This document shows, piece by piece, positions 35,170 to 39,533 of a stretch of 64,000 bases of DNA (position 1 is the stretch's first letter; every line of letters starts with the position of its first letter). The notes beneath the pieces are model-generated. The model was given only the letters and a program-made list of their open reading frames with translations, was not told the DNA's origin and made no database searches. The position numbers and the translations under genes are program-made. Origin of the DNA: Bacillota bacterium (GTDB lineage Bacteria > Bacillota > Sulfobacillia > JAJZYS01 > JAJYTV01); the NCBI GenBank assembly GCA_021793645.1, contig JAJYSJ010000002.1, positions 66,003-130,002 on the forward strand. Reading direction: 5' to 3'.

Positions 35170-35721
35170 CTATAGTTCGAGGCGATCCTTCGCCGCCTGC
35201 AACGCAGCAATCACGTTGGCGATATGGTCATCGAGCGGAATCCCGAGCTCATCCGCTCCCTGCGTAATGTCCTCGCGCATTACGCCGCGCGCGAACGCCT
35301 TGTCCTTCAGCTTCTTCTTCACGGAGCGCACCTCTAGGCCGTCAAGGCGTTCGGGGCGGACGAGGGCCACAGCGACCACGAACCCCGAGAGCTCGTCCAC
35401 TGCAAAAAGAGCCTTCGCCATGTCCGTCGTGCGGGCGACGCCGGTGTGGTTTCCGTGCCCCAGGATCGCGGTGACGATCTCCTCGTCGTACCCCTGCTGG
35501 CGCAGGATTTCGGCTCCCTTGTACGGGTGGTCCTCGAGGCTCTGATAGCGCTCATAGTCCATGTCGTGCAAGAGTCCCGCCGTCCCGAACCACTCTGGAT
35601 CCCCGCCTAGAATTCCGGCGTAATGGCGCATGCTGGCCTCGACGGCGAGGGCATGCTTCAGCAGTTGTGGGGACTTCGTCCATTCCGTGAGCAGCGTCCA
35701 CGACTCGTCACGCGTCTTCAT
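35170..35721 (-). CDS. HD-domain phosphohydrolase-like protein
   Basis: A 183-residue single HD-domain protein. The ligands are visible as H in LLKHALAVE, the HD pair in AGLLHDMDYE, and later HPYKGAEIL, GHGNHTG and a final Asp in AVDELSG. The ATG at 35721 has GGGGGAGG eight bases upstream and overlaps the preceding thioesterase gene by 14 bases. Such proteins hydrolyse nucleotides or phosphate esters; the substrate is unknown. It ends an operon of two nitrilase-family genes and a thioesterase. Confidence 0.88.
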   Translation of the reverse strand: MKTRDESWTLLTEWTKSPQLLKHALAVEASMRHYAGILGGDPEWFGTAGLLHDMDYERYQSLEDHPYKGAEILRQQGYDEEIVTAILGHGNHTGVARTTDMAKALFAVDELSGFVVAVALVRPERLDGLEVRSVKKKLKDKAFARGVMREDITQGADELGIPLDDHIANVIAALQAAKDRLEL

Positions 35722-36178
35722 TGCTTGCCTCCCCCGCTTCCATGGCCTGCCTGGCTTCCCTAGAACGGAACGTTGCTTGCACCGGCAAAAAAAGCCCTTC
35801 CGCCTCGGCAGCCAGCCGCCCTTCTGAGAGAATTCTCGCCTTGGCCTTCGCAAAGCGTCGCGTCCGGCGCTCGCAAGTCGCCTCCACGACGAACGGAGTC
35901 TCTGTGTACAGGGGACCGCGATAGCGCACCGTGAGCTCACCCGTCGCGACGCCCGGCATGCCTTGGGCCGCAACGGCGTAGTACATGGCCTCATCCAGGA
36001 TCGCGCTGACGATGCCGCCGTGGGTAGTTCCGGCGTATCCCTGCAGGTGCGAAGGAACCTCTCCCTCGGCGCGCGCGCCCTTTGCGCTGTACTCGAAGTG
36101 CAGGTGCAAACCGGATTTGTTGTCCGGCCCGCAGACGAGGCAAGCCCCGTCATCGCGCCAAACATTGTCGGTCGACAC
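35708..36178 (-). CDS. PaaI-type hotdog-fold thioesterase
   Basis: A 156-residue acyl-CoA thioesterase-like protein. It begins with CLVCGPDNKSGLHLHFEY, a Cys-containing start common in one PaaI subgroup, and has the active-site segment YAGTTHGGIVSAILDEAM (HGG and Asp/Glu). Two Cys near the start could bind a metal. The GTG start shares one base with the stop of the upstream nitrilase (TAGTG), implying tight coupling. Its partner acyl group is unknown; co-translation with nitrilases suggests amide or acyl scavenging. Confidence 0.88.
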   Translation of the reverse strand: MSTDNVWRDDGACLVCGPDNKSGLHLHFEYSAKGARAEGEVPSHLQGYAGTTHGGIVSAILDEAMYYAVAAQGMPGVATGELTVRYRGPLYTETPFVVEATCERRTRRFAKAKARILSEGRLAAEAEGLFLPVQATFRSREARQAMEAGEASNEDA

Positions 36179-37236
36179 TAGCTTGCTCCTCCTCGCCAGA
36201 AACCGGAGTAGACGCGCGGGAAGTAATGCTCGTAGAGGGCCGGGTTCAGATCCAACGGGTTTTCCTGACGGTAGCTTTGCAAAGCCGCGATGTCCATGTC
36301 CGCGACGACGATCGTCTCGCCCTCTGGTTCCGACGAGATCGCGAGTATCCCATCCCCGTTCGGCGTCATGGCCAGCGGCGCGTAGATCCCGGCATTGCCC
36401 GTAAGGCGCATGCCGAGCACGTTGCCGACAAGCGCCGCCTGCACGCCGAACACCTGGGACTCCTGCACCCGCGGCCAGATCCCTCTGAGGGCCTTCCAGC
36501 GGTTGTACGGATACTCCGCGTCCGCGATCGGCACCAGCACGATCTCCGCCCCCTGCAAGCGCAGGATGCGGAACGTTTCGAAGTAGGTCGCGTCCATGCA
36601 GACCGGCAGTCCGATCCGCCCGACCGAAGTGTCGTAGACCTCGAGATCCTCACCAGGCGCGAGTCCCCAGTCCACTTCCATCGGCAGGAGGTGGCACTTG
36701 GCCTGGCGCAGGATGTCGCCTTCCGGCGTGAAGACGTAACCGACGTTGAGCATACGGGCATCCGCAGCAGGCAGCATCGCAGAACCTGCGGCGATGTGTA
36801 CCCCGAAGCCGATTGCCAGCGTGCGGAAGGTTGTCTCGTAGATGCGCCGCGTCGCTCGGCCGAGTATGCGGAAGAGATCGGCGACCTGTACGCCGTCCCC
36901 AACTTGCTTAAGGGCCTCCTCCACCGTGAGCGTGCGCAGCAGCGGGCCGATGCCGGGAATAATACCAACGATCAGGCTGGCGGTGTCTTCCGGGAAGGCG
37001 ATCAGCTCGGCCCCTTCCGCAACAGCCCGCCGGACACGCTCGTAGATCAGGTCCACGTACTCGTCGGCCGTCTCACAGAGGTGGAACTCCAGCTGGACCG
37101 CGGCCGCGCGTACAACACCGACCTGCGGCGTCCGCGCCTTGTGGCGGAATCCGCGTCGGCGCAGCCGGCGGTGGATCCTCCCGGGTCGAGAGCGATACTG
37201 AAGCATCATTTGCAGGCCGATCTCGCGGAGGTTCAT
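36178..37236 (-). CDS. Carbon-nitrogen hydrolase (nitrilase superfamily), triad intact
   Basis: A 352-residue nitrilase-fold hydrolase. The catalytic triad is present: E83 in AFPEDT, K180 in AKCHLLPME and C213 in LPVCMDATY. A basic N-terminal stretch (about 10-40, RRLRRRGFRHK) precedes the domain. The ATG at 37236 has AGGAGG seven to eight bases upstream and overlaps the stop of the upstream paralogue by four bases (ATGA). Substrate could be an amide, nitrile or N-carbamoyl compound. The pairing with a triad-less paralogue suggests a hetero-oligomer, which is inference. Confidence 0.9.
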   Translation of the reverse strand: MNLREIGLQMMLQYRSRPGRIHRRLRRRGFRHKARTPQVGVVRAAAVQLEFHLCETADEYVDLIYERVRRAVAEGAELIAFPEDTASLIVGIIPGIGPLLRTLTVEEALKQVGDGVQVADLFRILGRATRRIYETTFRTLAIGFGVHIAAGSAMLPAADARMLNVGYVFTPEGDILRQAKCHLLPMEVDWGLAPGEDLEVYDTSVGRIGLPVCMDATYFETFRILRLQGAEIVLVPIADAEYPYNRWKALRGIWPRVQESQVFGVQAALVGNVLGMRLTGNAGIYAPLAMTPNGDGILAISSEPEGETIVVADMDIAALQSYRQENPLDLNPALYEHYFPRVYSGFWRGGAS

Positions 37237-38099
37237 CGCGGCCTCCTATAGAGCATCGGAAGGTGCTTGCGGTAGAGTCCCGGATTCAGTTGGCGGAAGA
37301 TCGGGTACTCGCGGCGAATGCGTTGCAGCTCTTCCGCTTTTAAGGTAGCCACCAGTGAACCGGTTCCGACGAAGTAGCCGGGCTGGGGCAGGAAACCCGA
37401 TTCCTGCGGCGTGATCTCGCAAGGGCCGAAGATCGCAGCCCTGCCGCCGTATGTGCGCGTTCCCAGGCTGCCCTGCAGGCCCGCCTCAATGCCGAACGTC
37501 TGGTTCTGCTGCACCTCTTGCCACAGCCCCCACAGAGCCTCTTCTGCCCGGTACGGGGCCTGCGGCGCGAGAGGCGCAACCAGAATGTCGGCGCCGGACA
37601 GCGCAAGGATGCGGCTCACCTCGGGATGCCAGGCGTCCCGACCGAGCAGGAGTCCGATCTTTACGCCCTCCTCAACGGCGATCGACGTCAGTTCGTCGCT
37701 AACCGCGAGGGCCGGAGCCATGACGTGCGTCTGCCTCTGTTCTCCGACGAGGTTCCCTTGTCGGTCGAACACTGCGGCATACTCCTGCAGCCGATCGTCC
37801 CCGGACCGAACGTAGACGCTGCCGGGTACCACGGTTGCGCCAAGCGTACGCGCCGCATAGGAGCCAGCGGCGAGATAGGCCTCCTTGATGCCCGCATCGA
37901 TGGCGGATGGGTCGGGCTGTTCTGGATCGAACGCAGGGCATAGCGTCATGGCCATCAGGGCGGGAAAGACGTAGAGGTCAGGTTCGGCGCGCTGTGCAAC
38001 CGGGGCCGCAGCTTCTACGATGCTGCGACCGAAGGAGGCTGCGTCCTCAGCGGCGAACGGGGGGAGGCGGAAGGTGGCAACCGTGAAGTCGCGCTCCAG
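37233..38099 (-). CDS. Nitrilase-fold paralogue lacking the catalytic triad
   Basis: About 288 residues with the nitrilase fold and clear similarity to the downstream gene (segments VKIGLLLGRDAWHPE, ILVAPLAPQAPYR, the C-terminal LNPGLYRKHLPMLY matching LNPALYEHYFPRVY). All three catalytic positions are changed: Glu to A47 in VFPALM, Lys to Q123 in QRQTHVM and Cys to G153 in LLGRDAW. It is therefore probably a structural or regulatory pseudoenzyme. The start is uncertain: CTG at 38099 sits after GGGAGGGG; TTG at 38135 is an alternative. It heads the operon, overlapping the active copy by four bases. Confidence 0.82.
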   Translation of the reverse strand: MERDFTVATFRLPPFAAEDAASFGRSIVEAAAPVAQRAEPDLYVFPALMAMTLCPAFDPEQPDPSAIDAGIKEAYLAAGSYAARTLGATVVPGSVYVRSGDDRLQEYAAVFDRQGNLVGEQRQTHVMAPALAVSDELTSIAVEEGVKIGLLLGRDAWHPEVSRILALSGADILVAPLAPQAPYRAEEALWGLWQEVQQNQTFGIEAGLQGSLGTRTYGGRAAIFGPCEITPQESGFLPQPGYFVGTGSLVATLKAEELQRIRREYPIFRQLNPGLYRKHLPMLYRRPR

Positions 38100-38183
38100 T
38101 AGGACCCCTCCCTGTATCCCGACAGAACATACCAAGTTATGCAGTTCCGACACGGATCGGCAAACTCCTGCCGGAGCCCTGCG

Positions 38184-39533
38184 ATGAATATGCCCGTCTT
38201 GCCGCCGTTCAAGGTGTTCGAAGCGGCATTCGCCCCCTCCACGTGGGCTGCCGGAGAGGACTACCTCCTGCAGGACCGCGTGCAAGAACTGCGGCGTGCA
38301 GGGCGTTCGCTTGCGGGTCGGGTGCTCGGCGTTCGCGGCGACTACTGGGTGCGCTGCGCGCTGGGAGAGCCTCCAGTAAGTGTCTGCAGTTGCGGCCGCC
38401 CGCGCTGCCGCCACGCCGCAGCAATCGTTCAGGCCTACTATTCGCGCCGGGTGCCCGCCCGGGACGCCGACGCGGTCATCGACGCGTTCATGGAACACCC
38501 GCGCCGTGCACCGCTTGCTGCCGCCGCATTGGGCGAAGATCTGCTGAATGCCCTCGCCTTACCCGCCGAGCGTGCAGAGGACCTCGCTTCACTGCCTGAA
38601 GAGCAGGCGATCTTACGCATGCAAGAAGCTCTGCAGGCCGCACCGGACAAAGCCGCACTTCTGTGCGCGCTGCTGCCGCAGGCCGCAGCGCCCGGTCCCA
38701 CACAGGACCTCGTGCGCGCATGGCTCGGGGACCTCGCCTGGCAGCCGCAAGACTGGCTGCGCTTCTATTCTGCGGCACCGCTGTCGCTGCTCGCGTTTCT
38801 CGAAGCCATCGAGCCCCCGGATTGGCCCGCGGAACTGCACCCATCCGTGATCGCGGCCCTTTGGCAAAGCGCCGCTGCTGACGTTCAGCGACTGCCGCGT
38901 CTCGCGGCCGTCGCTGCGCGTCACGCCCCGAAGGAGGCATTCGCCGCCCTGCGCTCCCTCGCCGAAGCACATCCCTCGCTGATCGCGCCGATGCTGGCCG
39001 CAGGGGACGCGGTCGGCAGTCTGGGGCGAGCGCTCGGCGTGGCGCTGCGCATCGTGGCAAGCCTGCCTCCCGGCGAGCAGAAGGCGGCCCTTGCAGACAT
39101 CCTCGCCGCTGCGGGCAGCCATCCGAAGGTGCGTGCGGAGGCGCTGTTGCGCCGCGCCGCGCAGGTGGGCGACGCCCGCGCTCTGCTCGCCGCACGCCGT
39201 GCCGCAGTGCGCGCCGGGAACTGGCCGCGACTGCGCCGCCTGGTGCCTGCCCTGCTGCGCGAGCGCAAGGATGCGCTCGCGCTCGAAACGCGCCTGCTGC
39301 TCGCCGACGGAGACCTGGACGCGGCCGCCCGAGTCGCTGCGCGCTCTCGGACGAGCAGCCTTCCCGAACGCCTTGTTGCGGAAGCGCTGCGCCTGCTTGC
39401 GCCTGCCGAGGCGCGCCTGCACGAACTGCGCGCGGATGCGATCGCAAAGCGCCTTGGCGAAGAGCCTGACGACGGCCCCGAATCACCCGGCTACAGACCG
39501 CAGGAGGATCGAACCCGTCCGCGGAAAGACTGA
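38184..39533 (+). CDS. SWIM zinc-finger protein with helical repeat domain
   Basis: A 449-residue protein. Near residues 66-82 it has SVCSCGRPRCRHAAAIV, a SWIM zinc finger (CxC-x4-CxH), preceded by a beta-rich N-terminal region typical of SWIM proteins. The rest, to about 420, is Ala/Leu-rich helical, probably a HEAT- or TPR-like scaffold, and the tail is polar. The ATG at 38184 (MNM) has CGGAG eight bases upstream. SWIM fingers bind DNA or proteins and are often near SNF2 helicases; none is in the window. It is followed after 21 bases by an unknown gene. Confidence 0.82.
   Translation: MNMPVLPPFKVFEAAFAPSTWAAGEDYLLQDRVQELRRAGRSLAGRVLGVRGDYWVRCALGEPPVSVCSCGRPRCRHAAAIVQAYYSRRVPARDADAVIDAFMEHPRRAPLAAAALGEDLLNALALPAERAEDLASLPEEQAILRMQEALQAAPDKAALLCALLPQAAAPGPTQDLVRAWLGDLAWQPQDWLRFYSAAPLSLLAFLEAIEPPDWPAELHPSVIAALWQSAAADVQRLPRLAAVAARHAPKEAFAALRSLAEAHPSLIAPMLAAGDAVGSLGRALGVALRIVASLPPGEQKAALADILAAAGSHPKVRAEALLRRAAQVGDARALLAARRAAVRAGNWPRLRRLVPALLRERKDALALETRLLLADGDLDAAARVAARSRTSSLPERLVAEALRLLAPAEARLHELRADAIAKRLGEEPDDGPESPGYRPQEDRTRPRKD

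Follow-up and report, generated by a model that had tools for sequence, protein, structure and literature searches.

A triad-less nitrilase-fold protein kept beside a catalytically equipped paralogue suggests a two-part enzyme in many Bacillota

Members of the nitrilase superfamily (PF00795), such as the Pyrococcus PH0642 amidase, Nit2/Nit3, N-carbamoylputrescine amidohydrolase and the Geobacillus aliphatic amidase, are known as dimers of identical chains or as larger homo-oligomers. A small number of enzyme families, most of them eukaryotic, have subunits that are catalytically dead paralogues of a live enzyme. In trypanosomatids, AdoMetDC needs its dead paralogue, prozyme (PMC5201418), and deoxyhypusine synthase also has a dead paralogue as partner (PMC3663545), activation having been measured in both cases.

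The present analysis concerns two adjacent genes in a 64,000-nucleotide stretch of DNA from a Bacillota genome (hereafter the window), the upstream one designated u and the downstream one d. Both products have the nitrilase fold; d carries the catalytic residues of the superfamily (Glu-Lys-Glu-Cys), whereas the triad is absent from u, and the two are proposed to form a heteromer, unlike the known members with their identical chains. The pair would resemble the trypanosomatid systems in that a dead protein with the fold of its live partner may form a working heteromer with it; it differs in belonging to another enzyme family and another domain of life, and its heteromer is inferred from genomics and modelling. 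A search of the open-access literature returned no account of a nitrilase-superfamily pair of this kind, which is not proof of its absence. The features of the locus are as follows.

35170-35724, minus strand: HD-domain hydrolase, closing the local operon; linkage kept in the family only
35708-36178, minus strand: 4HBT (PaaI-like) thioesterase, following d in the local operon; linkage kept in the order only
36178-37236, minus strand: d, downstream gene, nitrilase-fold protein with an ATG start (Pfam CN_hydrolase, catalytic tetrad)
37233-37236, minus strand: four-base overlap, ATGA, of the u stop and the d start (sequence)
37233-38099, minus strand: u, upstream gene, triad-less nitrilase-fold protein, a pseudo-amidase (Pfam CN_hydrolase, model, triad columns)
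38097-38099, minus strand: probable CTG start codon of u (conserved in relatives)
38105-38112, minus strand: Shine-Dalgarno-like GGGAGGGG of u (sequence)

The four-base overlap described in the original prediction is present as ATGA, and translation of the two genes is likely to be coupled through it. The relatives support a probable start of u at the conserved CTG codon at 38099: the string CTG-GAG-CGC-GAC-TTY, following a GGAGGGG ribosome site, is kept in the window and at the loci of seven relatives (within L065-L072), and two of these (L071 and L072) carry an in-frame TGA just 5' of the CTG, leaving no ATG, GTG or TTG. On the plus strand, a divergent neighbour of u (38139-39533, 464 aa) is kept beside the pair in the family; it has no Pfam match, and a cysteine-rich SWIM-like motif is visible by eye. 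There is no sign that u is a phage gene, since a scan of IMG/VR with u gave zero relatives.

Both products match Pfam CN_hydrolase (u with 49 bits and d with 68, against a cut-off of 23). That they align with each other over the nitrilase fold, including the C termini, was confirmed by BLASTP (32% identity over 204 residues, E = 2e-26, C termini matching) and by profile-profile comparison (probability 100, E = 1.8e-59, 301 columns). Compared with ordinary nitrilases, d carries about 50 inserted residues following the Glu and is extended at its N terminus, and it scores far under every NCBIfam equivalog cut-off. An AlphaFold model of the window u has a pLDDT of 94.2 and a pTM of 0.91, and its match to solved amidases and Nit3/Nit proteins in the PDB (Z about 29 over 257 residues) argues that u is, as modelled, a nitrilase fold without the nitrilase machinery.

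The window d contains Glu83, Lys180, Glu187 and Cys213. The replacement of Glu83, Lys180 and Cys213 by Ala, Gln and Gly in u, as first read from the letters, agrees with the profile-profile comparison, which pairs FPA with FPE, QRQTH with QAKCH and LLLGRDA with LPVCMDA; opposite Glu187 there is a gap, the loop with the second Glu having been lost. An intact triad elsewhere in the window u, for which the original prediction had allowed, was not seen in its alignments, including the structural match of the model. Automatic annotation labels both u and d as hydrolases, and the pair serves as a warning in this respect.

For the family as a whole, residues were examined in a d-selected set of 66 pairs (65 loci and the window), chosen without reference to u. 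The full Glu-Lys-Cys triad occurs in none of the 66 u proteins. The claim of a complete loss of all three residues stands for the window u and not for the family: Glu is retained in 3/66 (L220, L226, L228) and Cys in 9/66 (L184, L198, L199, L200, L202, L203, L206, L207, L208), never in the same protein and never together with Lys. The Lys position is Gln in 64 proteins, Ala in one and Glu in one. Since the Lys is replaced in every u and the loss of Glu and Cys is uneven, the change of Lys to Gln is the family signature of u, and the loss of Glu and Cys probably came later than that of Lys. A statement based on a pattern-selected set, that no u keeps Glu or Cys, was dropped because of these exceptions. 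The u proteins that have Cys (the nine above) or Glu (the three above) with Gln in place of Lys could be intermediate stages of triad loss.

In d, the Glu-Lys-Glu-Cys tetrad is intact in 65 of the 66, the exception being L232, with Gly for Cys. Degenerate copies of d are also seen at L078 (Glu changed to Asp and Cys to Thr), L133 (Cys changed to Ser) and L167-L169; the degenerate pairs of the last three lie at L167:4404-6363, L168:4242-6184 and L169:332-2589, and one genome (G082) carries a normal pair (L216) besides the degenerate pair L168. As d has lost catalytic residues at these six loci, it seems that the pair can persist at a few loci without canonical chemistry. One could go further and regard the whole pair as a non-catalytic scaffold or binding protein in which the triad of d is incidental, a reading to which the doubly degenerate pairs (L167, L168, L169) and the Cys-less d proteins (L078, L133, L232) lend themselves; the presence of all four catalytic residues in d of 65 of the 66 surveyed genomes makes it very improbable.

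Two further readings give u a role of its own at the former active site. In the first, u is a ligand-sensing regulatory subunit: substrate or product would bind uncleaved at its old site and turn d on or off allosterically, so that u would do more than complete or stabilise the dimer. The pocket of u is largely conserved in keeping with this, namely the Gln in place of Lys, the His of QTH and the Asp after the Cys position, and the second Glu is often kept (54/72). A precedent exists within the superfamily: substrate and product are reported to regulate beta-ureidopropionase by shifting its oligomeric state (PMC10741476). However, the window u lacks the loop carrying the second Glu, and the strongest conservation of u lies in presumed dimer helices (see below) rather than only in the pocket, and we therefore regard a sensor role as unlikely. 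In the second, u is a new enzyme whose active site has been rebuilt from other invariant residues (Q122, Q124, H126, D156, R164, E206 and C228-E229-T231, in model numbering) acting in series with d. Many polar residues are indeed nearly invariant in the pattern-selected u set, including a Cys-Glu pair absent from the window d, with Cys228 at about 92%. This figure falls to 67% in the d-selected set, several of the positions show the same conservation in d (Q178, H182, D215) and may be structural, and some residues (G192, W194, Q199, N200) were fixed by the u search pattern itself; a rebuilt enzyme is thus quite improbable.

Co-occurrence of the two genes, which had been suggested as a check, was examined from both directions. 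A profile scan starting from u across about 85,000 species identified 71 loci, mostly in Bacillota, including Thermoanaerobacter wiegelii, Caldanaerobacter, Acididesulfobacillus, Dethiobacter and many metagenome-assembled genomes (MAGs). Two of the loci are cut by a contig end, and d lies directly downstream of u in 68 of the 69 testable ones. The exception (L097:3912-4880) has an intact u without d, followed by a transporter permease-like gene, and may reflect either a true loss or an assembly error in the MAG. Since the u-first scan relied on a motif specific to u, 398 Bacillota genomes were also surveyed starting from d, and a strong d was found in 68. After two d loci less than 350 bases from a contig start were left out, u was found directly upstream on the same strand at 66/66 testable loci; hence no d without u, and no locus at which the upstream gene had decayed away, was encountered among them. 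In relatives of the window genome, the u and d matches are neighbours in almost all genomes that give a strong match. One genome (L166) has a C-terminally truncated u without d, and two complete genomes of the window's class (L052 and L176, family f26) have a u with a long low-complexity C-terminal extension before d.

In a maximum-likelihood tree, the u proteins form a single clade (SH-aLRT 99) and 33 of 35 d form another (SH-aLRT 99), those outside being the degenerate copies of L167 and L168; both clades stand apart from five ordinary nitrilases (SH-aLRT 99). By this tree, u and d are sister clades that go back to one old duplication. Single nitrilases of about 360 residues with an intact triad (L170, L171, L172, L173) are close outsiders to both. 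Among near relatives of the window, dN/dS ranges from 0.10 to 0.26 for u and from 0.12 to 0.27 for d, so that u is under purifying selection like d. The tree clades and the dN/dS values together indicate that u is an old, maintained paralogue and no pseudogene; like prozyme, it is an inactive paralogue retained with its live partner. The opposite reading, that u is a functionless, decaying duplicate or an annotation artefact, could appeal to the faster evolution of u in the phylum as a whole (a mean column identity of 29%, compared with 45% for d) and to its shortness in some species. Against this stand its dN/dS, the want of any testable d without it, its confidently predicted fold and its fusion to d in several lineages (below), leaving a negligible chance; for the phylum, the selection and co-occurrence data exclude decay.

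The u and d sequences form a single open reading frame in at least four lineages (L128/L045; L076/L086; L101; and, in another family, L199/L200/L203/L207), always in the order u then d. The natural fusion L128 was modelled from natural fusions together with u-d neighbours that lie in the same frame, translated across the intervening stop codon so as to pair rows. The model has a mean pLDDT of 85.9 and a pTM of 0.87, with a disordered linker at residues 264-301, and its d half matches solved superfamily members (Z about 30). Two halves of uncertain mutual placement give an estimated pTM near 0.5; by comparison, the value of 0.87 indicates that the halves of L128 are predicted to pack as one unit, with their mutual placement confident, and does not by itself prove the geometry of the A-surface.

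Two helices of u were assigned to the A-surface on the basis of known nitrilase structures. Conservation of u is highest in these presumed A-surface helices (mean 2.99 against 1.60 bits, P = 1e-7), as determined in the d-selected set, which was used in place of the pattern-selected u set, where conservation is inflated at residues fixed by the pattern. These helices are also conserved in d, which would be expected for any nitrilase. The underlying dimer is common to all known functional members of the nitrilase superfamily (PMC4700190), and we infer that a u-d heteromer would use the A-surface.

Considered together, the near-obligate pairing, purifying selection, common origin, recurrent fusion and predicted packing of the fusion favour, at a probability of roughly two in three, a reading in which u and d are two subunits of one heteromeric enzyme of the nitrilase superfamily, with u as the obligate pseudoenzyme partner. 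An ancestral homodimeric amidase gene would have been duplicated in tandem, the d copy retaining the Glu-Lys-Glu-Cys machinery and the u copy probably losing the essential Lys first (to Gln) and the Glu and Cys later, lineage by lineage. The u protein would pair with d through the usual dimer helices of the superfamily, supplying the second half of a dimer once built from two live chains. It may thereby activate, stabilise or regulate d, which would be stable, correctly shaped or regulated only within the heterodimer and weak or unstable alone. The proposal that the dead copy is a regulatory or structural subunit thus gains from the behaviour of u as a dedicated partner, paired in both directions, under selection, derived from one duplication and recurrently fused; the physical contact and the effect on d are its presumptive parts. 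The loss of the catalytic machinery of u and its maintenance under selection beside d, sometimes in one chain, suggest an enzyme of two parts, one of them a dedicated 'dead' subunit, across many Bacillota. The u-d pair would be a bacterial case of a dead subunit in a large and industrially used superfamily. As it offers dozens of natural replicates at differing stages of triad loss and several natural fusions, both the role of a pseudoenzyme subunit and the order of residue loss become directly testable in it.

The original prediction also joined the pair with the thioesterase and the HD hydrolase in one pathway. In the family of the window, both genes follow d in every member whose contig is long enough; linkage to the thioesterase reaches the order of the window and linkage to the HD gene does not. 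A general pathway of this kind was rejected, the linkage being limited to the order and the family, respectively. In other Bacillota, the pair recurs with a GH125-like glycosidase and a GPH-type symporter, a recurrent and unstudied gene set that is flagged here. The glycosidase was identified in 54 of the 398 genomes, d in 68 and both in 47 (odds ratio 103, Fisher P = 6e-37, a test that ignores kinship). It was not found in the genome of the window in the search that gave these 54 strong matches elsewhere, and the pair must therefore, so far as gene content indicates, serve another context in the lineage of the window.

The linked glycosidase, of about 620 residues, aligns with the metal-independent GH125 alpha-mannosidases (PF06824) over its C-terminal half; its N-terminal half is unmatched, and only positions of about 203-410 of the 414 in the GH125 profile align, which falls short of a whole-profile match. 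D418 and E581 are invariant in it and align with the Asp of PSDD and with a Glu in the C-terminal half of CPE0426, residues which we take to be the catalytic acid and base, as presumed for GH125. The linked transporter matches MFS_2 (PF13347) with 173-186 bits, in line with the glycoside-pentoside-hexuronide:cation (GPH) symporters (TIGR00792), whereas its scores of 122-130 bits are under the gph subfamily cut-off of 231. Gene neighbourhood was the one source of evidence found on the substrate of d. In the lineages with glycosidase and symporter, the most economical guess is that d may act on an amide or nitrile derived from an imported glycoside. A fuller scheme, tentative and on balance doubtful, would have the GPH symporter import the glycoside, the GH125-like enzyme remove the sugar and u-d hydrolyse the aglycone at its amide or nitrile; the pair would then be the first obligate pseudoenzyme/enzyme heteromer of the nitrilase superfamily and would form the centre of an undescribed catabolic pathway of four genes in Bacillota, and the lineage of the window would have rewired the heteromer to the thioesterase and HD hydrolase. 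In T. wiegelii (L124:4196-9144), glycosidase, u, d and symporter follow one another with overlaps of 4, 4 and 11 bases, and a two-component system comes next. At another locus (L050:5824-9549, minus strand), d and the GH125-like glycosidase lie in one open frame of 1242 aa.
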